Positions 531 to 13,064 of a stretch of 13,715 nt of DNA are shown in pieces. The position numbers and the translations under genes are program-made. How positions within the stretch are numbered: position 1 is the first letter of the stretch; each line of letters opens with the position of its first letter. The notes under the pieces were generated by a model that did no database searches, had not been told where the DNA came from, and saw nothing but the letters and a program-made list of their open reading frames with translations. The stretch comes from Planctomycetota bacterium (GTDB taxonomy: Bacteria; Planctomycetota; Brocadiia; JAJRTI01): the NCBI GenBank assembly GCA_024278415.1, contig JAJRTI010000744.1, positions 1-13,715 on the forward strand. Direction: 5' to 3'.

Positions 531-3500
531 TCAGAACCCCACTTCCGTGATGCTATTCCACAGGTTGCTCGTGTTGCCGTAGCAGGTGATTCGGACGTGT
601 CGGGCGGTTTCGGGCTTCTTCAGCGTGTACGCCTCCAGCTTGGCGCTCTTGCCGTTGGACTGGCCCTCGAAGATGTCGCGCCACTTGAGGCCGTCGCTGG
701 AGACGCTGATCTTGAAGCGCGTCCGGCGCTTGTCGCCGTTGTACCAGGCGATGCGGACCGCGGCGATCTGCCGCGGCTTGCCGAAGTCGAACGCGATCCA
801 CTCTTCCGAGCCGTTCGCAGACCATCGGGTCTCAAGGTCTCCGTCCAGCACGTTCTTGGGCGCGTTGCCATCGTCCCGGCTCGCGGTGACGGTGATGCCG
901 CGAACGATCGCCGGCTTGGGCTTGCGATGCCGCTTCGCCGTGCCGCCGCGTGGGACCTTGTGCAGAAAGCGGACGAGATAGACCGACGCCGCGCCGCGCG
1001 GCTTGCCGGTCACGGTGATTCGGGTCGTGCCGGGAACAGCGGCCGCGGCTTCGATGTTCACGTCGCTCCCCGCGTCCGCTTTCGCCTCGACCACGGGTGG
1101 CGACTTCGTGTCTTTGGGCAGCGTCACCGTGTACGTGAACACCCTGGGCGAGAAACCGGATAACGGCGCTTCGTCTACGGTGACGCCGGAGAGGCTGGGG
1201 GACTTGGCGGCATCCAATTTCCAGGAGTCGAGCGGGATCACTGCCGGCAACGCGGCCGGCGCGGGCTCGAAGTCGTACGCGGGCACAAAGAGCGCGGCGA
1301 TGGTGACATCCTTGGTCTTCGGCAGATGCACCGCGAGCTTCTTCATGCCCTTGTTCGGATTCTGGATGTCCGGGTTCGGCGACGTGGGCAGCGGCTTGGC
1401 GTCCATGACCACGAACTTCGCATTGGCTGGCGCGAGCAGGTAGGCGTAGCACTTCTTGCCGTTCCGTTCGAGGATCGCCCGGCGCCCGTCCTTGGACACC
1501 GCGCACGCCATCCCCACATCGGAGTGGGCGAACCACCAGATGTCATTCGCTTTGAGCCCCTTGATCTCGTCTTGCACGAGAAACGCGCGACGGTACTTGA
1601 AGAGCCGATACCCGCGCTTGACGGACACCGCGTAGCGGGGATACGCGTGGGTGAGGTCGGCGATGGCGAACACATCCTTGGGCGACGACTCGAAGCGCAC
1701 GATCTTGGATCGGCCTCTGGGGTCTTGGCAGTATCCCTTGCCGGGATCGAAGACGAGCGTGTTGTGGCCTTCCTCGCGGATACGATAGAAGCTCCACCTG
1801 GGTAGGTGGTTCTGGTGCCTGAGATACGTCTGCCGCTCCGTGCCGAGGTCGATGAACCATTTTTCGCCAAGGCCGTAGAAGATGAAGCTGCCCAAATCCT
1901 GATGCGCGTGCGCGACTCCGTTCCTGCCGCATTTCACGCCCGCGAAGAGCGCGTTGCGGTCCGTCCACGAGCTGCGCATGGTCGCGACCTCGGTCTCGCG
2001 GAAATACTTGTCGAGCTTCACGTCTTGGATCGCGAGGTCGCTCTTGAAGGGCTGGTAGTAGAGGATGTCGTAGAGCGACCCGCGGGAATGCTCTTCCTGG
2101 AAGCGCAGGTAAAGCGGGTTGTGGAAGCGCGCGGCCAGATAGAAGAAGCCCCAGTGTTGGTACGTGCCGCGGCCGGAGCCTGAGTCCGCGAAGTTGTAGA
2201 TGCTGCCGAGGGGGCTCGTCAGGTAAATGGGAAAGTCGCCGGCCATGGCGAAGCCCGTTCCCTTCAGCGCGTTCACGAACCCAAAGTCTGTGCCGAACGC
2301 GGTTTCGAGCCCGCGCAGATACGCGAGGAAGTAGCGCATGGAGTAGCCCCAGTAGCCCACGCCTTCCCACCACGCGCCATCGGGTTCGAAGTGCGGGAGC
2401 GGGATCTGGATGTACTGGAAGGCCGCGTGGAGAATCTCGCCGCACTCCTTGGGCATCTCGTCGAGCAGAGCCATCGCAGCCAGCGACGAGCCGCCGTTGC
2501 ACACGAAGTTCCAGTTGTTCGTCACCTTGCGCCAGCCTTGCATGCCTTCCGCCGGCAGGCCCATGTACGCCGCGTACGAGAGCCGAAGCCCATGCCGCCA
2601 TATGCCGTCGCGGATCGTCTTGCGCTGGGCCTCGGTTAGGCCGTTGTAGAACCAGTCGTACCCGATGCCCATCGCGTGCATCATCTCCGCGGTGTCGAGG
2701 TAGTGGCGCGGGTTCCAGTCTTTGAAGGCCACGACCGCGGCCATCTCCTTCCACGCGCGGTCGAGCCACTTGCGGTCGCCGGTCATGCGGTACATGAAGC
2801 CCCAGTGATACATGCGGTCGCATTCGTCGCGTGAAACGGACAGGAGCCGGCGGCCGTCGGGCAGCTCGTACTTGCGCACCGGCCGGCGATAGAGGCTCTC
2901 CGCCCGGCGCTTCGCGTTCCCATACCACGCCTGGCCGCGCGGGTCGGTCGTGACGAACTTCTTGATCCGTGGCAGATCCTCGTCGAGCAGAATCAGCCGC
3001 GGATGGTCTCGCCGTAGTTTGGCGAGGAAGCCTCCCATGGCCGGCTCTTGGACGTACTTCTGCACCTTGATCGTCGGCCGATAAGGCTTGTCGCTGAAGG
3101 AGAAGTCGAGCGCGTCGAGCACCCACACCGATTCGTCGGTCGGCTTCTGGTTCCATCCGCTCGCAGTGAATCGAATGCGGTCGATCTTGTGCCACCCTGC
3201 CGGCGACCGCGTGCGGCCAAAGGACTGGAAGTGGAACTCGAGGCGCTTCCAGCCGGTCCAGTCCACCTTGACCTTCTTCGAGAAGTAGGCGAAGACTCCC
3301 TTCTGGCGCCTCGACTCGATGATGATCATGAACGTCTCGCGGCCGGCGAGGTTGGAGTGGAGCCAGAAGGACATGGTGTTGAACGCGGACAGATCGCGGG
3401 GCGCTTTCAAGCACTCCATGGAGCTGTTTTGGGTGTGCTTGTCCCATCGCAGGGCCGCGTCGCCGGACTTCTTGGGCTCGGCGACGAGCGTGCCCCCGCG

Positions 3501-3656
3501 CCAGAGCGCGGCATCCTCGAAGCCCAGGGCATTCTTGATGTCGTCAGACCACGCCTGCTTTGCTTTCTCCGCCGCGGCCTTGGAGGCCGGGCTCCCAAAG
3601 CCCGCGCCGCAGGACGCGGTGAACACAATGGCAACGCATGCATACGGAAAGCGCAT
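531..3656 (-). CDS. secreted heparinase II/III-type polysaccharide lyase with cadherin-like and F5/8 type C domains
   Basis: A 1041-residue exported protein, probably a uronate-polysaccharide lyase. Residues 1-24 form a signal peptide. Residues 35-190 look like a beta-sandwich carbohydrate-binding module. Residues 215-800 are a heparinase II/III-like alpha/alpha toroid plus beta-sandwich. Residues 815-900 resemble a cadherin-like beta-sandwich (LSGVTVDEAPLSGFSP), and 915-1041 an F5/8 type C (discoidin) domain. Expected active-site features are present: NNWNFVCNG (380-388), GVGYWGY (432-438, candidate catalytic Tyr435), HAHQDLGSF (583-591), Asp603 in FIDLG, and His631 in EEGHNTL. By homology to Pedobacter heparinase II, His583 would be catalytic and His585, Asp603 and His631 would bind zinc. 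The ATG at 3656 is chosen because AAGGAG lies 6 nt upstream and a signal peptide follows at once; an upstream in-frame ATG would add 35 unlikely residues. Last gene of the four-gene block, 55 bp after its neighbour. Substrate (alginate, heparinoid or other) cannot be told from sequence. Confidence 0.88.
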   Translation of the reverse strand: MRFPYACVAIVFTASCGAGFGSPASKAAAEKAKQAWSDDIKNALGFEDAALWRGGTLVAEPKKSGDAALRWDKHTQNSSMECLKAPRDLSAFNTMSFWLHSNLAGRETFMIIIESRRQKGVFAYFSKKVKVDWTGWKRLEFHFQSFGRTRSPAGWHKIDRIRFTASGWNQKPTDESVWVLDALDFSFSDKPYRPTIKVQKYVQEPAMGGFLAKLRRDHPRLILLDEDLPRIKKFVTTDPRGQAWYGNAKRRAESLYRRPVRKYELPDGRRLLSVSRDECDRMYHWGFMYRMTGDRKWLDRAWKEMAAVVAFKDWNPRHYLDTAEMMHAMGIGYDWFYNGLTEAQRKTIRDGIWRHGLRLSYAAYMGLPAEGMQGWRKVTNNWNFVCNGGSSLAAMALLDEMPKECGEILHAAFQYIQIPLPHFEPDGAWWEGVGYWGYSMRYFLAYLRGLETAFGTDFGFVNALKGTGFAMAGDFPIYLTSPLGSIYNFADSGSGRGTYQHWGFFYLAARFHNPLYLRFQEEHSRGSLYDILYYQPFKSDLAIQDVKLDKYFRETEVATMRSSWTDRNALFAGVKCGRNGVAHAHQDLGSFIFYGLGEKWFIDLGTERQTYLRHQNHLPRWSFYRIREEGHNTLVFDPGKGYCQDPRGRSKIVRFESSPKDVFAIADLTHAYPRYAVSVKRGYRLFKYRRAFLVQDEIKGLKANDIWWFAHSDVGMACAVSKDGRRAILERNGKKCYAYLLAPANAKFVVMDAKPLPTSPNPDIQNPNKGMKKLAVHLPKTKDVTIAALFVPAYDFEPAPAALPAVIPLDSWKLDAAKSPSLSGVTVDEAPLSGFSPRVFTYTVTLPKDTKSPPVVEAKADAGSDVNIEAAAAVPGTTRITVTGKPRGAASVYLVRFLHKVPRGGTAKRHRKPKPAIVRGITVTASRDDGNAPKNVLDGDLETRWSANGSEEWIAFDFGKPRQIAAVRIAWYNGDKRRTRFKISVSSDGLKWRDIFEGQSNGKSAKLEAYTLKKPETARHVRITCYGNTSNLWNSITEVGF

Positions 3657-3662
3657 GGGGGA

Positions 3663-3668
3663 CTCCTT
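3663..3668 (-). promoter_or_regulatory. Shine-Dalgarno site of the lyase gene
   Basis: AAGGAG on the minus strand, 6 nt before the ATG at 3656. It decides the start in favour of the signal-peptide Met rather than the ATG at 3761, which would lie inside or upstream of this site. Confidence 0.85.
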
Positions 3669-3711
3669 GATGTCTGTCAGCAGTAGTTTCCGTCCCAACC
3701 CGCTTGCTGCA

Positions 3712-6540
3712 TCACTTCCCGGCCACCACCAGCACACTCGTGCTCTTGGCAGGAATGGCAAGGGACACGGTGAGGCTCCGCGGCCCGGGCTGGAGGCCTT
3801 TCACTTCGCCGCAGAGAAGCGTTTCGACTCGCAGATCGGACGGGTTCAGACGCAGCGCGGCCGCGTTGATCTTTGCCGAGCACACGGCCGGTTTGTCGGC
3901 CGCGTTTGCGAGCGTGAAGTAGAGCGGCAAGCGCCCCTGGCCTCCGAAGCGTTCGATCCGCACCGCGGGATGATCGACTGCGGCAAACGTGACCGGCTCC
4001 CAGCCGGCTTCGGCCAGGCGGCGAATGGCCGGCACATATCTCTTGTAGAGCGCGCGCAGCTCGGGCTCCGACGCGAACTTGCTGCGCCCGCCGTACCCGC
4101 CGGGGAAGAAGCCAAACCGCACGTGCTGCCGAATCCACGGCTCGGTGTAGTGCTCAGGCTTCACCGGCAACGTCACCACCGGCTTGTGATACGCCAGCGT
4201 GCGCGCGGCCGCGCCAACGCGCTCGATGCCCCATTCGTATCCGTGCATGTCGAGCAGCGTCGCGGCGAACGGGAACGGCAGCTTGCCCATGTTGGCCATG
4301 ACGTATTTCCCCTGCTTGCGCATGTCGCCGGCGAGCGCCTCGACCCATTCGTAAAGCGCGAAGTCGCCGATCTGCACGGGCCGGCAATCGGGCCGGCTGA
4401 ACGTGAGCGGATAGTCCACGTATGCGAAGTGCTCGCGGCGGAAGTTGAGCGAGTACGCGTTCACAAAGTAGTTGTCCAGCCCCACGCCGTCGAGTTCGCC
4501 GCCCTTGCTGCGATACCCAGCGAACGCGCGGCCGAGGATTTCGGTGAGCAGGAACCGGCCGTATCCGCCCGGGATGTCGGGGTCGGGATTGCAGAACAAC
4601 CGGCCCGTCCACCAGTTGGCCGGCCCCCAGCCTTTGCGGTTGATGACGTAGCCGATGATGAAGTTGCCGGCCGCGTCGTACGCCGCGGATGTTCTAACGG
4701 CCTTCACGCACCGCCTCAGGTAGTCGGACGCGGCCTCCCGCCCCCGCGCGTGCTCGATGCCTTCGTAGCGGCGCCGGCCGGTCGCCTTCGCGGGACGGCT
4801 CAGCACAAACGCGCGCGGGTCGCGTGCGGTCAGGTATGCCTCGAAGACCTTCTGGCACGTCGCAGTGTCCGGCTTCTTGGGGAACGCTCCCAAGTCGGCA
4901 AAGTAGCGCACGGAGTCGTTGTAGAGGAACGAGAATACGCCGATCTTGTCGTCGTACGCGACGGCCGACGCGCCGCCCGGCCCCCAATGGTACAGAAACC
5001 CGAAGTCCGCGAGGTCGCGGATGCTTTTCAGCGAACTCCAACACACCCATCCGCCGTCGCGCTTCATGCGGTTCTCGACGAGTTTGGGGAAGATGCCGTA
5101 GTACTTCTTCGCGGCCGCTCGCAGCCCCCAGCGGCCGTCGTGCGTGTAGATCACAAGCGAGAAGCGGGCGCGTTGCGGAAACTCTCGGGTCGCCGGCGTG
5201 AGCGCGAAATCGAACGCCGTGTAGAGCTGCCCAGTCGCCGCGTTGTACGCGATGCGGTTGACGCACGGCTTGTCCAACGGAATGCCAATCGCTAGCCCCG
5301 CGGCGCCGCCGACGCAGCCGAAGGGGTAAATGGAGTTCCGACCGTTCGCGCCCGCGGGGCATCGGTTGTAGCTGTAATACTCCGCGGCGCCGCGGATGGG
5401 CCGGGTGTGGTCGATGTCGTCCCACCACACGAGGTCCCGCGGCGCGATGGGCAGGGCGAAGTAGAGGCTAATCGCGCGGTCCTTGCCCGTCGTGTCCGTG
5501 ATGAAGCCGTCGATGGCGATGTGGTCGGCCTTGGCGGTGACCGTTGCGTCGAGGGCCACGCCCATGCCTGGGAACTGGCCCTTTTGGCGAAGGCCGGCGG
5601 CCGTGCGTTCGAACGCGCTGCTCACTGGGACCAGCTCAGGCCCGCCGGCCGCATCCCTGGCGAAGAAGCCCGCGAGCGGCAGAGCTTTCCGCGGCGCCAC
5701 GTCCTTGCCATCGAGGCGCACCGCGGCGATTTGGCCCGCCGCGCTGAACCCGACCGCGAGGCCGTCTTCCGTCTTCACCACCTGCGCCACAGGCGGCCGG
5801 CTCGCGAGCGCGAGCGGGCCGCTCGGCGTTCGTTGCAGATCGAATCGGGCGATGCCCGGCCCGCCTGCGAAGTATTCCAGATCGGTTTCGGTGATCGGGC
5901 GCTCGGCGATGTAGGGGGGAATCGAAGGGGGAAACAGGATGCCCTGATCTTCGGCCAGCTCCAACTCCATGCGCCAGGCCGCGGCGTCCTTGCCCTTCCC
6001 CACCGGCAGAAGTATCTCGACGGGCTTGTAAAGCGGCAATGTCTGCTCTTTCACGAGCGCGCCGTCGCCGTCGTAGATCGCGACCTTGCCCGGCTCGCCG
6101 TGCATCTTGAGAGTAAACGCGGTCGTTCCTTTGGGCACGTAAAAGAACAGCGGCCGCGCATGCCGGATGATGTTCAACCGGCGGCCGTCGGAGATGTCCA
6201 CGGCCCATTGCCTCACGCTCGGCTCGATCGCGAACGCGTTCATGCCGGGATCCACGTGGATCGAATACGTCCCGGACACGCGGGCCGCGAAACGGATGGT
6301 CTTCTCGCGGTCCACGAGCACGATCCCCTTCTCCAGCAGCTTGCCGAAAGGGCCGAGCAGGGTGTACGCCGCGTTGTCCGCATAGCCAACGCTGGCGCGC
6401 AGGCAACGCACCTTCAATGCGACGGGTTCGCCCTTCTTGGCGTAGAACGCGATCGTGTGCTGCTTGCGGAAATGCGTGGGCTCCGACGCAGCCGCGGAAA
6501 TCGAGAGCAACAGGAGGCCGAGAAAAATGTTCTTTAGCAT
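3712..6540 (-). CDS. secreted unclassified glycosidase-like protein (942 aa)
   Basis: An exported protein (signal peptide about 1-18, LGLLLLSISAAAS) that I cannot assign to a named family. Residues 20-200 look like two beta-sandwich domains. Residues 250-480 are strand-rich, with YYSYNRCPAG at 388-397, resembling the N-terminal supersandwich of several retaining glycosidase families. Residues about 500-850 alternate strands and helices as in a TIM barrel. They contain ELDGVGLDNY (682-691), where Asp684 or Asp689 sits at the end of a predicted strand as in clan-D-type glycosidases, then MHGYEWG (765-771, Glu769) and FGFFPGGYGG (809-818). Residues 855-942 form a C-terminal beta-sandwich. The start has GGAGAG 6 nt upstream. 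Third gene of the block, 85 bp after the dual-domain enzyme and 55 bp before the lyase, so a role in the same glycan breakdown is likely. Catalytic activity is inferred, not shown. Confidence 0.72.
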   Translation of the reverse strand: MLKNIFLGLLLLSISAAASEPTHFRKQHTIAFYAKKGEPVALKVRCLRASVGYADNAAYTLLGPFGKLLEKGIVLVDREKTIRFAARVSGTYSIHVDPGMNAFAIEPSVRQWAVDISDGRRLNIIRHARPLFFYVPKGTTAFTLKMHGEPGKVAIYDGDGALVKEQTLPLYKPVEILLPVGKGKDAAAWRMELELAEDQGILFPPSIPPYIAERPITETDLEYFAGGPGIARFDLQRTPSGPLALASRPPVAQVVKTEDGLAVGFSAAGQIAAVRLDGKDVAPRKALPLAGFFARDAAGGPELVPVSSAFERTAAGLRQKGQFPGMGVALDATVTAKADHIAIDGFITDTTGKDRAISLYFALPIAPRDLVWWDDIDHTRPIRGAAEYYSYNRCPAGANGRNSIYPFGCVGGAAGLAIGIPLDKPCVNRIAYNAATGQLYTAFDFALTPATREFPQRARFSLVIYTHDGRWGLRAAAKKYYGIFPKLVENRMKRDGGWVCWSSLKSIRDLADFGFLYHWGPGGASAVAYDDKIGVFSFLYNDSVRYFADLGAFPKKPDTATCQKVFEAYLTARDPRAFVLSRPAKATGRRRYEGIEHARGREAASDYLRRCVKAVRTSAAYDAAGNFIIGYVINRKGWGPANWWTGRLFCNPDPDIPGGYGRFLLTEILGRAFAGYRSKGGELDGVGLDNYFVNAYSLNFRREHFAYVDYPLTFSRPDCRPVQIGDFALYEWVEALAGDMRKQGKYVMANMGKLPFPFAATLLDMHGYEWGIERVGAAARTLAYHKPVVTLPVKPEHYTEPWIRQHVRFGFFPGGYGGRSKFASEPELRALYKRYVPAIRRLAEAGWEPVTFAAVDHPAVRIERFGGQGRLPLYFTLANAADKPAVCSAKINAAALRLNPSDLRVETLLCGEVKGLQPGPRSLTVSLAIPAKSTSVLVVAGK

Positions 6541-6625
6541 GAAGGTCTCTCCGTGTGGATCTATTTGGATTCCCAGGCCGCGGTGCGGATAACGAGCGAC
6601 ACGTCAAGTAGAGCACAAGCGCGTC

Positions 6626-8578
6626 TCACCGCGATGTGAGTTCCTTGAGCTTCGCGTACACGATCGGATCATCGGCCGCGCCCTTGAACTCGAACGGAGC
6701 ATACTGATTGACCGTCTTTAGCATCAGCCCCCACGACGCGCCATGGGCCACGCAGGCTTCCGCCGCGCGTGCCGCGGCGGCGCCCAGTTTGTCGTCCTCG
6801 TTGCACACGATCGGCTTGCTGAACTTGTTGAGCGCGGCAATGCGATCGGGGATCTTGTCGACCGGCGTGCCGTTGAAGTGGACCAGGAGGAAGTCGCTCG
6901 CCTCCACCACGTCGCGGGTGAGCCTGCCATCGCCGATGCCGCTCGCTGAGACCAACAGGCCCGGCGCGGTCTTCTTGGCAAGCCGGATCAGCTCGGCTTC
7001 GCCTTCCGGCGACTTGAGGATCGCATGGTCGAACCCGGGATGGGGGAATTCGTTCGCGATCTCGATCGCCACGTTAGTGAATCCGTTCTGCTGAATCCAT
7101 TGCACTACGTTCACGACGCCGGCGCGGACGGCCGCCGCGTCCCGCAGAATCTGGTCCTGCCGCTGGTAAAAGCACCCCAGGATCACGACCGCGCCCTGCC
7201 GGTCGCACGCTTCGATCACCCGGGCCACGCGCTCCATGTACCCGGGTCGAAGGCTGCCATCGGGATTGAAAGCAGAGTTCACCGCACCCTCGTACCCGGG
7301 AAAACCGCCCTGCAAGCAGATCGTGAACGCGCGCACGCCGTGGGCAACATAGTCCGGCAGGCGGGCGAGGAAGATATCGGTGTTGGCGTCGGGATCAAAA
7401 CCCGGCCGCTTGCGATCCTCGAAGACCGCGTTCACCATCCGCACGTTCATCAGCAGCCCCTCGGCCCGGGAGCCCGGGTAGGTGGCCTTGCCGTTGATGC
7501 TCCATTGACCATCGACAAGCGCGACTCGCGTGCAACGCTTCGGCGCCGGCCGGCTGGCTTCCTTCGTGCGCAATCTCAGCCGCGTCGCCACTTCGCGTAT
7601 GCCGTCGAGGATCTCGCGCTCTTCGGGATCGAGTTGGTCGAACAGCCGATGCTCGCGCATGTCGAAGGAGCGCCGGGGCTTGCTCTCCGGCCGGTCCTTC
7701 TGGTCGCCGTTGTGGAAGCACCACCCCGCCGCGCCGGCGTCGATGGCTTGCCGCAGGTCCGTCAGGAACGCCGCGGCCGGCGGCTCCCATCGCTGCGGAC
7801 GAAACCCGCGGCGGAAGGGCTCTTGGTAGTGGACCGGCACGACTCGGCCGCGCGCGCGCATCTGCGCGAGATACTGGCGCGTCTTGGCCGCGGTCTGACG
7901 CGGCGACCGCCGGTTCCGAGGCCGATGAGGCGAGATGAAGTCCACCTGAATCGTCTCCAAGTACTGGCGCAACTCATCACGCGGGATGTCCCCTGCGTGC
8001 GACGCGGTGATGAGACGATTGGGATCGAGTTGCTTGGCGCGGTCGCGCAGAACCTTGAGGTCCGCGAAGGTCGCGAACCGGCGATCCCGGATGTTGCGCT
8101 CGTTCGCCAGATCGAGATACCAGTTGCGGTGCGGCAGCAGCCCCTCCACGAGCGCGTCCACCGCGCGCTGCATGGACTCGAGCGACTGGAGCCGCGGCGG
8201 ACCCGTGATCCCATTGCCGCGCGACAGCGTGATGTCCACCACGATCCCGCGCCGGTCGCATTCCGCGACCAGTTCCTTCAACCGCGTCATGAACGGCTCG
8301 CGAACTCGGCCCTCGGCATCGACCGCGGACACGTCGTTGTCGAACGCGGCCCAAGTGGCCCACACGCGAATCCAGTTGAGCCCGGCCTGCTGCATGTCGT
8401 CGAGATCGCGGCGGATGAATGCGTCCGACGCTCCAAGCGCGCCGTAGTAGCTGATGCCGAGCAGGAACGTGGGCTCGCGGTTGAGGGTGAACTGATGGCC
8501 TTGGATGCCCAACTCCGTCGCGGCCATGGCAACACCTCCGAGCAGAGTCAGAAGGAATGATGTAGCGATGTCGCGCAT
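6626..8578 (-). CDS. exported protein with two tandem GH5-like (beta/alpha)8 domains
   Basis: A 650-residue protein with a signal peptide (about 1-20, ending VAMAA) followed by two glycosidase-like barrels. Domain 1 (about 22-335) starts FLLGISYYGALG and has NWIRVWATW (68-76), DLANERN (156-162, Glu160 as acid/base) and VHYQEPFRRG (249-258, Glu253 as nucleophile). Domain 2 (about 350-650) has YVAHGVRAFTICLQGG (410-425), IEIANEFPHPGF (505-516, Glu510) and KPIVCNEDDKLG (588-599, Glu594). The Asn-Glu on strand 4 and Glu on strand 7 are hallmarks of clan GH-A, so both halves may be active. The start at 8578 has AGGAG 6 nt upstream; the ATG at 8584 touches that site and is too close. It lies 36 bp after the preceding gene and 85 bp before the next. 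Family and substrate are not determined; the two halves are clearly diverged from each other. Confidence 0.8.
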   Translation of the reverse strand: MRDIATSFLLTLLGGVAMAATELGIQGHQFTLNREPTFLLGISYYGALGASDAFIRRDLDDMQQAGLNWIRVWATWAAFDNDVSAVDAEGRVREPFMTRLKELVAECDRRGIVVDITLSRGNGITGPPRLQSLESMQRAVDALVEGLLPHRNWYLDLANERNIRDRRFATFADLKVLRDRAKQLDPNRLITASHAGDIPRDELRQYLETIQVDFISPHRPRNRRSPRQTAAKTRQYLAQMRARGRVVPVHYQEPFRRGFRPQRWEPPAAAFLTDLRQAIDAGAAGWCFHNGDQKDRPESKPRRSFDMREHRLFDQLDPEEREILDGIREVATRLRLRTKEASRPAPKRCTRVALVDGQWSINGKATYPGSRAEGLLMNVRMVNAVFEDRKRPGFDPDANTDIFLARLPDYVAHGVRAFTICLQGGFPGYEGAVNSAFNPDGSLRPGYMERVARVIEACDRQGAVVILGCFYQRQDQILRDAAAVRAGVVNVVQWIQQNGFTNVAIEIANEFPHPGFDHAILKSPEGEAELIRLAKKTAPGLLVSASGIGDGRLTRDVVEASDFLLVHFNGTPVDKIPDRIAALNKFSKPIVCNEDDKLGAAAARAAEACVAHGASWGLMLKTVNQYAPFEFKGAADDPIVYAKLKELTSR

Positions 8579-8584
8579 GTGCAT

Positions 8585-8589
8585 CTCCT
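8585..8589 (-). promoter_or_regulatory. Shine-Dalgarno site deciding the start of the dual-GH gene
   Basis: AGGAG on the minus strand. Spacing to the ATG at 8578 is 6 nt; to the ATG at 8584 it is zero. This selects the downstream Met, which also begins a clean signal peptide. Confidence 0.75.
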
Positions 8590-8614
8590 GAGGGCCCACG
8601 CGGCCTCGGCGCAT

Positions 8615-10030
8615 CTACTGCCCGTGCTTGGCGAGCGAGACGAACAGCACCGCGTCGCCATCGAAGGGAGCGCGGAACGCGCGCTTCGCTCCGCCGGACA
8701 CAGTGAACGGTTCGAGGGCATCGCCCGTGTCGGGGTTGATCCACTGGGCCGACAACGCGCCCGCGGCGGCCGACAGGTCTACGGCGACCTTGCCGCCGTT
8801 GGGCACGTAAACAATGTAGGCGGTTCCCGGCTGGGCCAGACAGAACCGCGACGACGCGAGCGCGGTCCTGGGCGTCATGGAGGCCAAGTCGACGCGCTCA
8901 GCCAGCCGGCGAGCAAATCCGAGGCTCCGCCGGATGGGCTCCCACCGCGGGTCGAACGGCTTGCCAATCACCACGGCATCGTAGGGGTCCATGAAGAGCG
9001 GGTTCAGGCCGCGGGTGAAGGTCTTCCACACCCACGCTTGGTTGCCGCCGATGCCCCAGAGGTGGTCCGTGTCGGAGAGGACCACTTTCTTGCCCTTGGG
9101 GTCCGGCGGATTGTTGCGGTACCCGCCGCCGGGATTCGGCGAGATCCAGTCGGCCGGGCTCTCGAAGAGCGTTCGGTTGGAGCCGCCTTTGAACTGGAAC
9201 GTCATGCCCACCGGATGTTGCTGGGGCTTGCCCTTTTCGTAGTCCTTGATGAAACGGATCATGTGATACTGCCACTCGGTGGACGGCGGGTGATTCTCGT
9301 TCGAGATCTCGTAGAGCACATTGTCGAGGTCGTTGACCGTGTCAATGACCTTGCGCACATACGCCTCTTGCCGCTCCACAATGGCGGCGTGCTTCAGCGT
9401 ATGAATGTCCAGCCCGTCGCCGACTTCGCGGCCGACGCCGTTGACGTTGTTGTCGGGATGGAAAGGATGGACTTCCCAAGCGCGCGGGGCGAACTGCATG
9501 CCCCAGCCCTCGAAGAGCATGATGGACACGTAAACCCCTCGCTCGCCCGCGGCTTGCACCCGCTCGCGCAGGCGCTTGAAATACGCGTCGTCGAATCGCG
9601 CCAAATCGAACTTCGGCTTGCCGTCGCGCGCGGCGCCGGGGCCGGTGCGCGGCCAAGGATGGGGTGCGACGCGGTGCTTTCTGGCCGGTCCAACGCTGCT
9701 GCTCGACGTGTCCCACTGCGTCAGCTCCCACCGCCACAGGCGCACGAAGTTGTGGTGATACTTCTCCAGGAAATCGAGGTACGCGCTCCAATCGAACGGC
9801 TGCGGCGGATCCGTCGGCCCCATGTCCTGGAGGTTGTTCCACACGTGCGAGCCGACCAGCAGCACGGCTTCGCCTGACGCGTCCGCGAAGTAGCGCGGGT
9901 TCTTTTCGCACACGCGCAGCGGCCCGGAGGCCGGCGCCGCACAGGCCGTGGCACAGGCGGCCAAGATGAGACCGCTCGCCAAGAGTTGAGCGATGTGAGC
10001 GGACGGCGTTAGCGAGGGAAGCAGATCCAT
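8615..10030 (-). CDS. GH-A-like secreted protein with C-terminal collagenase-type domain, probable lipoprotein
   Basis: A 471-residue exported protein of the type often annotated as a putative glycoside hydrolase with a DUF4038-like barrel and a putative collagen-binding domain of a collagenase. Residues 40-380 form the barrel: LLVGSHVWNNLQDMG (57-71), NFVRLWRWE (94-102), VSIMLFEGWG (168-177), VLYEISNENHPP (238-249, Glu245 as candidate acid/base), VVLSDTDHLWG (316-326) and GLNPLFMDPYD (341-351). Residues 390-471 (CLAQPGTAYIVYVPNGG onward) fit the C-terminal beta-sandwich. The N-terminus has a lipobox, LAAC with Cys26, but no basic residue before the hydrophobic stretch, which is unusual for an export signal. 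AAGGAG 7 nt upstream fixes the ATG at 10030; a longer frame reaches 10513 but overlaps the previous gene. First gene of the four-gene block. The position expected to carry a nucleophile Glu shows Asp-Thr-Asp. Confidence 0.8.
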   Translation of the reverse strand: MDLLPSLTPSAHIAQLLASGLILAACATACAAPASGPLRVCEKNPRYFADASGEAVLLVGSHVWNNLQDMGPTDPPQPFDWSAYLDFLEKYHHNFVRLWRWELTQWDTSSSSVGPARKHRVAPHPWPRTGPGAARDGKPKFDLARFDDAYFKRLRERVQAAGERGVYVSIMLFEGWGMQFAPRAWEVHPFHPDNNVNGVGREVGDGLDIHTLKHAAIVERQEAYVRKVIDTVNDLDNVLYEISNENHPPSTEWQYHMIRFIKDYEKGKPQQHPVGMTFQFKGGSNRTLFESPADWISPNPGGGYRNNPPDPKGKKVVLSDTDHLWGIGGNQAWVWKTFTRGLNPLFMDPYDAVVIGKPFDPRWEPIRRSLGFARRLAERVDLASMTPRTALASSRFCLAQPGTAYIVYVPNGGKVAVDLSAAAGALSAQWINPDTGDALEPFTVSGGAKRAFRAPFDGDAVLFVSLAKHGQ

Positions 10031-10037
10031 TCGTTGT

Positions 10038-10043
10038 CTCCTT
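10038..10043 (-). promoter_or_regulatory. Shine-Dalgarno site deciding the start of the collagenase-type GH gene
   Basis: AAGGAG on the minus strand, 7 nt before the ATG at 10030. It rejects the long N-terminal extension that the open frame would allow up to 10513. Confidence 0.82.
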
Positions 10044-10082
10044 TCGATGGGCGCTGACTTGGAAGACGCGAAGTGACGGGCG

Positions 10083-10110
10083 CCACGAAAGCACACGAAG
10101 GAAGCACGAG
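10083..10110. repeat. degenerate solo copy of the outer-arm repeat
   Basis: On the plus strand this reads CCACGAAAGCACACGAAG followed by GAAGCACGAG. It resembles the left arm of the element at 12870-13064 (CCACCAAGACACGAAGACAC) with small insertions. The shared core is CCAC, AAG, ACACGAAG and CAC. It lies in the presumed 5' leader region of the four-gene block. Similarity is by eye and imperfect. Confidence 0.4.
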
Positions 10111-10242
10111 CTGAGACCGCGCGCGCTCCAAGATGGATCATGCAAGCTTCCGGGGGCGTTTGGTTCGAGCCTGCCCAATCGCCAAGGGATTTTGCGGCGC
10201 AGACATCGAGCCGCGAGCATTGCCGCGCGGCGAACGAGCGGG

Positions 10243-10293
10243 CCTCAGCGGCCATCCGGCAGGAGCGCCGCGGCCCTGTGGCCTTTGCTGAGG
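10243..10293 (-). terminator. imperfect hairpin after the beta-lactamase-family gene
   Basis: CCTCAGC plus GGCCA (10243-10254) pairs with TGGCC plus GCTGAGG (10279-10293), 12 bp in total with a 3-nt TTT bulge in one arm and a 24-nt GC-rich loop. It begins about 10 nt beyond the stop codon at 10303-10305. There is no T-run after it on the minus strand, so it is a weak terminator candidate at best and may instead protect an mRNA 3' end. Confidence 0.3.
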
Positions 10294-10302
10294 GCTTGGC
10301 TT

Positions 10303-11373
10303 TCACGATCCAACGGCTTGAAGCAGAAGCTGGAACGCGTGGTTCTCCATTTCGCGGCTGCGCACCCGGGAGTCGTTCCAACTCACGATCAAGTCGAGGC
10401 TGGGCATGACGGCCATGACGCGGCGGCCGCCGTGTCCGAACGCGCCGTACGTGTCTGCGGCCGCGGCCGGCCAGTGGCGCTTGCCGTCGCGGTCCACGCC
10501 GTTGGTCCACCACAGCCAGCTATAGCTGCCGAAGTGGTCGGTCTGGTTGTCAGGCACGCGGCGAGAGCCGATGCTGCGTTGGCCGGGGATCATGTCCGCC
10601 GGCGTCATGCCGGCGCGAGGGATGGAATTGGGCAAGGGGCTGCTGATGGCCATGCGCGCGTGCTCGGGCCGAATGAGGGCGCGGCCCTGCCAGCGCCCTC
10701 CGCGCAAGTACAGCAGCCCAAACCGCGCGAAGTCCCTCGGCGAAATCGCAAGCCGGCCCGGCCGATCTCTCACGCCGAAAGCCATGAACGTGGGCCGATC
10801 CTCGCACTGCAACGGATCCGTGAGCAGCGGGTGCAACACCGTCTCGTCCACATTGGCGAAGGCCGCTCCATAGACCTTGCCGAAGAGGCAATCCCAAAAC
10901 AGCGCCATCTGCCAGTCGTTGTAGCAGAAGGCCTGGCCCGGCGAATCGGCCACTCCGTAGCACGCGGTCTGGTTGGCGAGGTGGCGCCAGGTGATGCGCC
11001 GGTCCTTGTGGCCGAGCGCGGGGTTGAGCGCGGCGAGCCGCGGCTCGATCTTGGCGACATGCTCGTCGAGCGACGCGACGCGGCCGTCCTCGATCGCCTT
11101 GAACAGGAAATGCGCATACACCGGCTTGGCCGCGGACGCGACATCGCCGCGGCGCTTGCAGTCGCCCCACGAGTAAACCATGCGCCCCCCGCGCACGACG
11201 CAGCCCCTGCCGGCGACGTATCGGCTGAACGCCGCGAGCCGCCCCGCGTCGAGGCCCGCCTCCCGCGGCTGGACTATCGCCCACGTCTTCCCTGGCCAAG
11301 CGGGGGCCGCCGCCCATGCCGCGCTAACGAGCAAGAAGGCGAGGCTGGCGATTGTGGTGTGAATCGGGTGCAT
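10303..11373 (-). CDS. exported serine beta-lactamase-family hydrolase
   Basis: A 356-residue protein of the beta-lactamase/penicillin-binding-protein-like superfamily, predicted outside the cytoplasm (signal peptide about 1-23, ending AAWAAAP). Family motifs are present in order: SAAK (80-83) as the Ser-x-x-Lys with Ser80 as nucleophile and Lys83; CYNDWQ (150-155), giving Tyr-Asn-Asp in place of the usual Tyr-x-Asn; and FGHGG (312-316) as the His-x-Gly equivalent of Lys-Thr-Gly. ISPRDFARFGLLYLRGGRW (210-228) is a familiar stretch of esterase-like members. Likely roles are ester, amide or peptide hydrolysis; antibiotic resistance is not implied. The ATG at 11373 has GGGAGG 7 nt upstream and starts the signal peptide, while the longer frame to 11427 has neither. 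It stands 160 bp from the gene before it and 272 bp from the one after, so it may be separately transcribed. Confidence 0.85.
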   Translation of the reverse strand: MHPIHTTIASLAFLLVSAAWAAAPAWPGKTWAIVQPREAGLDAGRLAAFSRYVAGRGCVVRGGRMVYSWGDCKRRGDVASAAKPVYAHFLFKAIEDGRVASLDEHVAKIEPRLAALNPALGHKDRRITWRHLANQTACYGVADSPGQAFCYNDWQMALFWDCLFGKVYGAAFANVDETVLHPLLTDPLQCEDRPTFMAFGVRDRPGRLAISPRDFARFGLLYLRGGRWQGRALIRPEHARMAISSPLPNSIPRAGMTPADMIPGQRSIGSRRVPDNQTDHFGSYSWLWWTNGVDRDGKRHWPAAAADTYGAFGHGGRRVMAVMPSLDLIVSWNDSRVRSREMENHAFQLLLQAVGS

Positions 11374-11380
11374 ACGTTGA

Positions 11381-11386
11381 CCTCCC
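11381..11386 (-). promoter_or_regulatory. Shine-Dalgarno site of the beta-lactamase-family gene
   Basis: GGGAGG on the minus strand, 7 nt before the ATG at 11373. It favours the signal-peptide Met over the in-frame ATGs further upstream. Confidence 0.75.
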
Positions 11387-11533
11387 AGTCTCGCGCAGTA
11401 TAACTCCATGCCCCTCACGCGCGCCACGCAGCGGAAGGTGTGCGCGAACCGCGCGGAACACGGCTCCTTGGGGCTTCCCGTTCATGTCCGTCAGCCGGCA
11501 GGATCATCTGTTCCACATCCACTCAACACTGGC

Positions 11534-12817
11534 TTACCGGGCGTATTCGTCCGCGACCTCCAACGCGATAGCCGACCACTCGGCCAAACGCGGAGGATCG
11601 CAGCGGATGGTCGAAATGTCCTTGAGGATCAGCTCCACGTGGCCGCCTTGCGCGGCGGTCACGTCGAGGATGCCGCGGAGTTCGTCGCGCACGGTCTCGG
11701 GGCGCCACACGTCCGTCGCGAGGAACGCGGGGTTGGGCTTAGACGAGAACACGAGCGTGTCGCCGCAGGCCTCGCCGCCGATGCGGTCGTCGGCCATGGG
11801 GCTCATGGAGATCTTGCGCAGATTGGGCAGCATCTCTCGAATGAGATCCACCTTGAGGTGGAGCGGCTCGCAGCAGCCGTAGTAGGTGAGGGCGAATCGG
11901 TTCATGCACTGGGCTTCGTATTGGAGCGCGAACTCGCGGTGCATGTCCGGCGAGACCTCGGAGAAGATCTGCACCATGCCGCCGCCCCACAAGTTGTGCA
12001 GCTTCACGTGGTCCGGGTCGTAGTCCTCGCCCGGCAACTCGTCCGTGTATCCGTAGCCGCCCTGGCCGATGATTTCGCCGGTGTTGTTTAGCTTGAGCAG
12101 ACCAAGCGACTCGTATGCGTCGAGCCGCGCCTGGTACGCGGCGGTCATGCGCTCCATGAGCGCGTGCACGAACTGCGGCCGCAGTGCGAGGTCCATGAGC
12201 ACCGGCTCGACTCCCGTCCACTGGACGAGCCGGTCCCAGGGAGAGATGTTGTAGCGGCCGAAGCCGATGTGCGTCTCCACCGGCAGCAGGTCGCCGAACG
12301 CGTCTTCGAGCATCTGCATCTGCGCGGCCGTCGCGGCCTCGTCGTGTGTGATCTCCGGGATGCGGATCTTCTCGACGTCGCCCTCGTCCTTGAGTTGGGG
12401 GATGTACGCGTGGGAGCGGATCGAGCTTTGCACAGTCTCAGAGCTGCGTTGTGGAATCGTGTCCTCCTGGGTGCGCACGCCGAGGTCGTCGCCGCGCAGC
12501 ACCGGCTCCATGCGGAGCACTGGCTCGACGACCATGTCGCCCGGGAAATGGTTCCACTGGTGAATGGTCTGTCGCATCCCGCGCTCGACCACGCGGCAGT
12601 AGGCGTGCTCGCACTGAAGTGCGAGCGCGTCTTGCTCGGACAACTCGATCTCGGCCCAGGGGATCTGGTAGATGTGGACCATGGGCCGGACCATGTCGAG
12701 TTGGTTGAGCCGGCGCCACAGCTCGCGCTTCTCTTGCTGCACCGGCATCGCCGCGATTTCGGCGATGCGCTCGGCGAGGGGACGGAGGATGGCCTTGTCG
12801 TGTGGAGGAATACTCAC
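11534..12817 (-). CDS. uroporphyrinogen decarboxylase-fold (URO-D-like) protein
   Basis: A 427-residue cytoplasmic protein without signal or membrane segments. Its C-terminal half fits the URO-D/cobalamin-methyltransferase superfamily: HIGFGRYNISPWDRLVQW (183-200), a mid-barrel KLNNTGEIIGQGGYGYTDEL (242-261), YYGCCEPLH (312-320), LPNLRKISMSP (330-340), FSSKPNPAFL (357-366) and STIRCDPPRL (402-411). Cys315/Cys316 and Cys406 sit about where the zinc-thiolate ligands of corrinoid methyltransferases such as MtaA lie, whereas true haem-pathway HemE lacks such cysteines. A methyl-transfer role is therefore more plausible than uroporphyrinogen decarboxylation, but the substrate is unknown. The start is GTG at 12817 with a modest AGGAA 6 nt upstream; the next internal Met is residue 24. 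The 266-bp gap before it holds the REPIN-like element. Confidence 0.78.
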   Translation of the reverse strand: MSIPPHDKAILRPLAERIAEIAAMPVQQEKRELWRRLNQLDMVRPMVHIYQIPWAEIELSEQDALALQCEHAYCRVVERGMRQTIHQWNHFPGDMVVEPVLRMEPVLRGDDLGVRTQEDTIPQRSSETVQSSIRSHAYIPQLKDEGDVEKIRIPEITHDEAATAAQMQMLEDAFGDLLPVETHIGFGRYNISPWDRLVQWTGVEPVLMDLALRPQFVHALMERMTAAYQARLDAYESLGLLKLNNTGEIIGQGGYGYTDELPGEDYDPDHVKLHNLWGGGMVQIFSEVSPDMHREFALQYEAQCMNRFALTYYGCCEPLHLKVDLIREMLPNLRKISMSPMADDRIGGEACGDTLVFSSKPNPAFLATDVWRPETVRDELRGILDVTAAQGGHVELILKDISTIRCDPPRLAEWSAIALEVADEYAR

Positions 12818-12869: not shown

Positions 12870-12890
12870 CCACCAAGACACGAAGACACA
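12870..12890 (+). repeat. left outer arm of the REPIN-like element
   Basis: Begins CCACCAAGACACGAAG. Its reverse complement recurs at 13044-13064 with two differences (positions 5 and 19 of 21). Arms of this kind, rich in AAGACAC and ACGAAG words, are familiar as dispersed intergenic repeats in environmental bacteria, from general knowledge. Confidence 0.75.
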
Positions 12891-12923
12891 AAGGGGGGCG
12901 AAGGAAGGGAAGGGGGCCCGTCT

Positions 12924-12944
12924 GTAGCGCGCACGTCAGTGCGT
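12924..12944 (+). repeat. REP-like unit 1: GTAG plus hairpin
   Basis: GTAG (12924-12927), one C, stem GCGCAC (12929-12934), loop GTCA, stem GTGCGT (12939-12944). The stem is 6 bp with a G-U pair at the base. Two GGGCCC palindromes (12914-12919 and 12953-12958) bracket it and could extend the fold. Confidence 0.65.
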
Positions 12945-12977
12945 TCCGTTCTGGGCCCTCCACGTCACCGGGCAGAG

Positions 12978-12998
12978 ACGCTCTTACGAGCGTGCTAC
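12978..12998 (-). repeat. REP-like unit 2: GTAG plus hairpin, inverted
   Basis: Read on the minus strand from 12998: GTAG, one C, stem ACGCTC, loop GTAA, stem GAGCGT. Spacing is identical to unit 1. Relative to unit 1 the fifth stem pair changes from A-T to T-A on both sides, and the first from G-U to A-U, so base pairing is kept while sequence differs. Confidence 0.65.
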
Positions 12999-13043
12999 GA
13001 ACGCGCTCAATCCCTACACGAACTTGCGGGATGCTGGACTTGG

Positions 13044-13064
13044 TGCGTCTTCGTGTCTTAGTGG
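13044..13064 (-). repeat. right outer arm of the REPIN-like element
   Basis: On the minus strand it begins CCACTAAGACACGAAG, matching the left arm at 19 of 21 positions. It ends 19 bp from the stop codon of the upstream HZS-alpha-like gene. Confidence 0.75.

Follow-up and report, generated by a model that had tools for sequence, protein, structure and literature searches.

A likely REPIN-like heterodimer of GTAG hairpins nested in an unrelated inverted repeat in a Planctomycetota contig

GTAG-tagged REPs are described, in the available text of the 2013 survey by Di Nocera, De Gregorio and Rocco, as carrying GTAG at one end of a stem of 5-13 bp closed by a short loop and as forming HH and TT dimers; they occur in both Planctomycetes and Verrucomicrobia, and the dimers of a few species, Anabaena variabilis and others, lie inside longer palindromes (PMC3733652). 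The same text states that heterodimers are preferred in most REP families while homodimers predominate in some, finds no obvious explanation for this, and suggests that heterodimers are shielded from long-hairpin-cutting enzymes (PMC3733652). Bertels and Rainey, in a supplementary legend, suggested that the target of RAYT is the clover form and not the long hairpin (PMC3116915), and alternative or compensatory stem residues of REPs and REPINs are already in print in the available parts of both papers (PMC3733652, PMC3116915). Biochemical analysis of REPMb, as given in the accessible sections of its report, showed that T13 and A15 are needed and that position 14 is free, and that cleavage is strongly reduced by a stem mismatch and only moderately by a swap of the whole stem (PMC8266576).

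In the window, by which we mean the whole 13,715-nt stretch of DNA analysed here, apparently an entire metagenome contig, two units carry GTAG at one end of a short palindromic stem-loop, as GTAG-tagged REPs do, and stand head-to-head (HH) with their GTAG ends pointing outward, 33 nt apart (Table 1). The pattern GTAGCRCGCWCGTMAGWGCGT matches both units exactly and, with up to 3 mismatches allowed, nothing else in the window; dinucleotide-shuffled versions had a mean of 0.01 matches on the same terms, and 0 of 200 had two, in agreement with the sequence-only reading, which had reported two inverted GTAG hairpin units at these places. A loose scan for GTAG plus any hairpin found 2 in the window versus a mean of 1.16 and a largest count of 5 in 50 shuffles, which is not above chance. 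Since the loose scan stays at the chance level, significance rests on two same-layout units 33 nt apart, and the excess of GTAG hairpins proposed earlier as a check is seen in the window with the joint pattern and not with the bare one. The layout is shared by the two units, as had been claimed, and the stem that is well paired in both comprises 5 bp (positions 7-11 with 16-20) and not the claimed 6 bp, the sixth pair (6:21) being G.T in unit 1 and A-T in unit 2. Each unit folded alone forms a 5- or 6-bp stem with a 4-nt loop (-5.8 and -6.2 kcal/mol, DNA parameters). The A-T/T-A compensatory exchange placed earlier at stem position 5 is present, at unit positions 10:17. Across the two units 18 of 21 positions are able to pair, with mismatches at 10, 14 and 17; set against the REPIN definition of Bertels and Rainey, the inverted geometry is present and the copies differ in stem and loop.

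Table 1. Features of the element and its flanks (positions in the window)
Feature	Position	Strand	Basis
Flanking ORF, 427 aa	11534..12817	-	ORF list
Left arm of outer inverted repeat, CCACCAAGACACGAAGACACA, periodic ACACGAAG type	12870..12890	+	90% complementary to 13044-13064
5' extension of unit 1, GTCT	12920..12923	+	read from sequence
GTAG REP unit 1, GTAGCGCGCACGTCAGTGCGT: GTAG-CG-CGCAC-GTCA-GTGCG-T, 5-bp stem, loop GTCA	12924..12944	+	pattern match, hairpin scan, fold
Spacer between units, 33 nt	12945..12977	.	dimer scoring
GTAG REP unit 2, GTAGCACGCTCGTAAGAGCGT: GTAG-CA-CGCTC-GTAA-GAGCG-T, loop GTAA, flip at 10:17 versus unit 1	12978..12998	-	pattern match, fold
5' extension of unit 2, GTTC	12999..13002	-	read from sequence
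Right arm of outer inverted repeat	13044..13064	-	90% complementary to 12870-12890
Flanking ORF, 203 aa, close to contig edge	13084..13695	-	ORF list

The pair of units is nested inside an unrelated outer inverted repeat with arms of 21 nt each, for which a search with the left arm gave 2 matches and none in shuffles. This repeat begins and ends exactly at 12870 and 13064, the limits that the sequence-only reading had set for the element while missing the repeat itself. As in MITEs, inverted repeats are found at the termini; a target-site duplication outside them is not found, as no direct repeat of at least 5 nt in one test and of at least 6 nt in another flanks the arms. Searching for similar arms revealed a ACACGAAG-periodic class (ACCACNRAGRCACNRAGRCACNRAG) in 10 of 27 genomes searched, belonging by record title to several phyla; members of this class enclose unrelated sequences, 22 to 363 nt long, and lack a clear target duplication (the window, L081, L118, L119, L121, L123, L125, L129, L147 and other loci). 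Among 19 other ACACGAAG elements none carried a GTAG dimer in its interior and one (L118) carried a single GTAG hairpin; of the 17 examined for duplications, L117 and L149 being left out, one had a 6-nt direct repeat, which is about the chance rate (105/1755), and the rest had none. Because ACACGAAG arms enclose many unrelated interiors, none of the 19 with a GTAG dimer, we consider the arms of the window an independent repeat class.

The whole element, 195 nt in length, lies inside the 266-nt gap between two codirectional ORFs (Table 1). The 427-aa ORF had no Pfam match itself, and PF01208, which we take to be uroporphyrinogen decarboxylase, was found in 3 of 120 of its homologues, among the matches listed, which include homologues of 70-77% identity; the loci closest to its protein are in an Armatimonadota-titled MAG (70%) and a Lentisphaerae-titled MAG (63%). 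A series of minus-strand ORFs extends over 531-12817 of the window, with heparinase-like, cellulase-like and beta-lactamase-family Pfam matches and an apiosidase-like match below its cut-off, and is possibly a carbohydrate-use cluster.

The generalised 21-mer of the window units had no exact match in species-genome contigs or viral contigs, the window element had no match in plasmids, and literature searches with the letter strings of arms and units returned one unrelated paper each. Allowing up to 2 mismatches, the 21-mer gave 5 hits in 387 genomes versus about 15 control hits, which is no excess, and two of these 5 loci (L112 and L114) led to the family. The layout pattern GTAGYRNNNNCGTMAGNNNNY occurred in 100 of the 387 genomes, which are of the phylum of G002 (titled Lentisphaerae), mostly with 1-2 matches, at or below the reversed-pattern control. 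Its counts exceeded that control in G216 (59 vs 5), G045 (17 vs 1) and G292 (15 vs 1) and, with smaller numbers, in G351 (9 vs 3) and G108 (7 vs 1). The head-extended pattern GTYYGTAGYRNNNNCGTNAGNNNNY was found in 7 of 199 genomes of the phylum of G006 (titled Planctomycetota), with 313 vs 0 matches in G704 and 30 vs 0 in G670, and in 2 of 131 genomes of the phylum of G001 (titled Armatimonadota), with no excess there. Many copies, as expected of a GTAG-tagged REP, are therefore present in the relatives G704, G670, G216, G045 and G292, and the search of relatives that had been put forward as a check did reveal a repeat family far above the reversed-pattern control in several genomes. Match places for both patterns were the first places per genome, among the matches listed. 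In these relatives GTAG is preceded by GTTT in 29 and by GTTC in 25 of 82 units (54/82 together), and the commonest loop is GTCA (34/82). Changing the spacing of the layout pattern from N4 to N5 gave no excess over control, except for a repeated GTAGTGAGCCCCGTAAGGGGC unit in G005. In the same, Kiritimatiellia-titled genome, L307 and L308 (C55 and C398) hold four GTAGTGAGCCCCGTAAGGGGCGT units that do not differ from one another; they represent another family of GTAG hairpins, whose loop is GTAA.

Pairing of the stem was examined in 322 kb of G704 DNA, no part of which was picked by pairing but which includes places with known matches. All 5 standard pairs were found at the right place after 26 of 75 GTYYGTAG heads, versus 1/47, 1/97, 0/26, 0/10 and 0/21 after permuted heads in the same DNA. 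We also compared 55 of 57 distinct units fetched at GTAGYRNNNNCGTMAGNNNNY or GTYYGTAGYRNNNNCGTNAGNNNNY match places, the two units of the window among them; two singletons from genomes without excess were dropped. In this set 94.2% of cells were paired versus 60.8% in shuffles (0/500 shuffles as high), a figure that is biased upward because, for six genomes with few matches (G131, G019, G133, G381, G295 and G253), genomes or places were chosen for paired listed units; among the matches omitted from the set are two unpaired ones of G133 and one of G108. Cells changed on both sides numbered 90 versus 30.4 in shuffles, the covariation score was 0.765 versus 0.174, and slid versions of the stem paired at 28 to 53%, while two measures out of five (pairs showing a double change and further pair types) were not above shuffles. 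Positions 7:20 and 10:17 each show all four Watson-Crick types; the C-G pair 11:16 is fixed by the search pattern. Pairing is thus kept among the 55 units while the stem letters vary, as in GTAG-tagged REPs. Given that the stems of the family covary with pairing kept, the A-T/T-A exchange in the window is one case of a general pattern. The earlier explanation by selection on hairpin structure finds its support in these relatives, whereas in the two units of the window alone, structural selection and the coming together of two subfamily members would look alike.

The 41 dimers that were scored, the window included, comprise 21 HH and 20 TT, the two orders known for GTAG-tagged REPs. Comparison of neighbouring units revealed that 0 of 54 inverted pairs have an identical 5-nt stem arm, whereas random pairing of the same units within genomes gave a mean of 13.5 identical pairs and a minimum of 4 in 2000 trials, and that 12 of 18 direct pairs do have an identical arm. 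The 54 pairs are not independent, as copies within a genome share descent and 13 of the pairs come from the single locus L219; counted by distinct stem combinations, the rule holds in 17 of them, in 11 genomes, and in the window. A similar picture was obtained with other REP families at Y1_Tnp loci, in which the units, judged by the first seven letters after the tag, were alike in 1 of 18 inverted pairs (a GTGG-tagged pair at L218) and in 10 of 13 direct pairs. The identity of direct neighbours may result in part from recent tandem copying, and perfect inverted repeats might be lost in short-read assembly. The contrast between inverted neighbours, which are never alike, and direct neighbours, which mostly are, points to competition between folds. 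When the spacer is left unpaired, the window pair is predicted to fold at -13.1 kcal/mol in the long form and at -10.0 kcal/mol in the two-hairpin form (DNA parameters), as compared with -27.6 and -11.3 kcal/mol for an in-silico homodimer of unit 1 and -24.3 and -8.8 kcal/mol for one of unit 2. The mismatches of the long form at 10, 14 and 17 therefore remove most of its advantage, and none of them disturbs either small hairpin; prediction nevertheless favours the long form of the real pair by 3.1 kcal/mol, and once spacer pairs are allowed the minimum free energy is -18.3. We propose that inverted units carry different stems because identical ones would pair into one long hairpin, and that two different stems may keep inverted pairs from merging in this way. 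The pattern is not universal, since homodimers predominate in some other REP families, as the available text of the survey has it (PMC3733652).

To see how often dimers lie within outer repeats, 33 of the 41 dimers were scored, leaving out the rows of L280, L282 and L314, whose flanks hold further REP units. An outer inverted repeat of score at least 12 encloses 13 of the 33, the window included (5/7 in G216, 5/12 in G704 and one each in G351, G133 and the window), and the other 20 have none; flanks taken from different genomes reached this score in 5 of 866 cases, and a swapped-flank control mixing copies of one family did so in 15 of 240 at score 12. The outer arms are not the same from one genome to the next. 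G704 has eight distinct elements, 140-142 nt long, each with both arms of GTAACTGTTCACGGGGTA type and at least one GTAG unit (such elements were seen at L351, L352, L360, L362, L363, L365 and L367), five further arms without a partner not being counted; a duplication abutting the arms is an exact 8-bp one in 4 of the 8, a 7-of-8 match in 1 and absent in 3. G216 has five elements with CAGCAATTCTAAATTTGGC-type arms, of which those at L261 and L267 have exact abutting 9-bp duplications, that at L263 has a direct repeat of 12 nt displaced by one base from the scored arm and those at L262 and L265 have none. The composites of G704 and G216 evidently moved as MITEs, and their exact 8- and 9-bp target duplications point to MITEs as a further vehicle for REP dimers. 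The transposases that move them would be expected to act on ends matching GTAACTGTTCACGGGG or CAGCAATTCTAAATTTGGC. IS66 elements have GTAA ends and make an 8-bp duplication; derivation of the G704 composite from IS66 was considered and found no support, as neither G704 nor G670 has a PF03050 match.

A link to RAYT transposases was sought at Y1_Tnp matches in relatives. At L219 of G108 a 221-aa ORF matches PF01797 (Y1_Tnp) with 24.6 bits (cut-off 23) and NF047646 REP_Tyr_transpos with 78.8 bits, just below the cut-off of 80. On both sides of this ORF there are HH pairs of GTAGTACCGCC-TTCA-GGCGG and GTAGTACCGGC-TTCA-GCCGG, which have a flip at 10:17, as in the window, and mostly GTTC, GTTT or GCTT before GTAG. 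Among the 50 loci fetched (of 65 Y1_Tnp matches in ten other genomes), repeated same-layout units were found only at L219, with TTCA loops. None of the loci fetched showed a transposase gene with short-stem GTNA-loop units on its flanks, and units of the family were absent within up to 1.5 kb fetched on each side of five Y1_Tnp loci of G704, which carries 313 units, and of five of G670; among these G704 and G670 loci, L345 and L348 have single hairpins with other loops. At a Y1_Tnp match of G295 (L223) units with GTCA and GTGA loops have longer stems. Alternating GTAG hairpin arrays with different stems were seen beside Y1_Tnp matches at L236, L249 and L254. In relatives, a RAYT-like gene with same-layout HH heterodimers on its flanks is thus seen at L219 and not at most transposase loci examined; the earlier designation of the element as REPIN-like, with GTAG units of RAYT type, is borne out through relatives (repeat family, covarying stems and L219) and not through the host.

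Taken together, the data make it likely that the window element is a REPIN-like heterodimer, that its REP family is of RAYT type and that the inverted repeat around it is unrelated to it. That the two hairpins arose by chance, or by simple duplication and random change, agrees with the shuffle-level result of the bare GTAG-hairpin scan but is strongly disfavoured and extremely improbable in view of two exact same-layout units where 0.01 are expected, of the family excess in relatives, the G704 head test, the covariation and the heterodimer pattern. Transcribed RNA hairpins acting as a terminator or as a processing or stability element would suit the position of the element between codirectional genes, and the available text of the survey places REPs often between unidirectional ORFs, many of them plausibly transcribed (PMC3733652). 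No Rfam match was obtained for the element at gathering thresholds, however, and the commonest loop of the relatives, GTCA, is not a GNRA RNA loop; we consider this explanation improbable, although a role at the RNA level may exist as a secondary effect.

The whole 195-nt stretch could instead be a MITE-like element, bounded by the outer repeat and moved by a DDE transposase, with RAYTs having no present role. The composites with 8-bp (GTAACTGTTCACGGGGTA arms) and 9-bp (CAGCAATTCTAAATTTGGC arms) duplications speak for such an element, as does the frequency of outer repeats around dimers relative to the control. Yet the window has no flanking duplication, its type of arm shows neither duplications beyond chance nor GTAG dimers in other elements, most dimers (20/33) lack an outer repeat, three of the eight G704 elements lack a duplication and G704 lacks an IS66-type PF03050 match, and we regard a MITE-like origin of the window element as rather unlikely. 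A broader and tentative reading, which we would favour no more than that, is that non-identical GTAG pairs form a conserved core in several inverted-repeat elements of these phyla that are unrelated to one another, separate DDE-type MITE families (with 8- and 9-bp duplications) and the ACACGAAG class each having acquired a REP heterodimer or been invaded by one. If so, REPs would have two routes of spread, one through RAYT acting on single strands and one as passengers in double-strand transposition, palindromes earlier described as insertion places of REP dimers would be the ends of such composites, and inverted pairs would have to be heterodimers for both small hairpins to form.

For the preferred reading, a REPIN-like heterodimer, we envisage a non-coding mobile repeat of two GTAG REP hairpins in HH order, in a family of the form GTYY-GTAG-YR whose 5-bp stem covaries and whose loop is c(GTNA)g. 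In this host, each hairpin would probably be recognised in single-stranded DNA by a REP-associated tyrosine transposase (RAYT/TnpA-REP, HUH Y1 type) supplied in trans, for which GTAG, the loop bases T13 and A15 and an intact stem would matter more than the stem letters. Identical inverted stems would pair together into a long hairpin hiding the two small ones; the flip at 10:17 would weaken this long form but neither of the small hairpins. The sequence d(cGNNAg) forms a very stable DNA tetraloop. It is possible that c(GTNA)g is kept for tetraloop stability, and loop recognition as in REPMb would explain its conservation equally well.

Compared with described systems, the element resembles GTAG-tagged REPs in tag, stem, loop, dimer orders, heterodimers and nesting in palindromes; the window family may be one of the 24 families of the survey (PMC3733652). 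The available text of the survey does not mention target duplications at its palindromes, whereas some composites of the relatives have them (PMC3733652), and, among the papers listed in literature searches, titles and opening lines of abstracts gave no report of target duplications around REP-dimer palindromes. REPMb of REPtron Mb, from group 3 of Marinomonas sp. MWYL1, has the same arrangement of GTAG, 2 nt, a perfect 5-bp stem and a loop at 12-15, as far as its report is accessible (PMC8266576). It has T12, and its activity is impaired by G12, whereas the window family has G12 and the REPtron at L219 has T12; a swap at the fourth stem position, which counted from the foot would be the flipped position of the window units, reduced REPMb cleavage in the same accessible sections (PMC8266576). 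With the REPINs of Pseudomonas fluorescens SBW25, as portrayed in the available parts of their description, the element shares the inverted doublet, spacer, hairpins, compensatory changes and RAYT link; in SBW25 the two copies are highly conserved and make a single long symmetric hairpin, whereas the window units differ in their stems (PMC3116915). Like TIR-bearing MITEs, in the terms of the survey text, it is short and non-coding and has inverted ends, and composites of its relatives have 8- and 9-bp target duplications; unlike them, the window has no duplication and the class of its arms is found with many unrelated interiors (PMC3733652). The element is therefore of a known kind, and the newer parts are the near-obligate heterodimer rule, which bears on a preference left without obvious explanation in the consulted text of the 2013 survey (PMC3733652), and the duplication-flanked composites.
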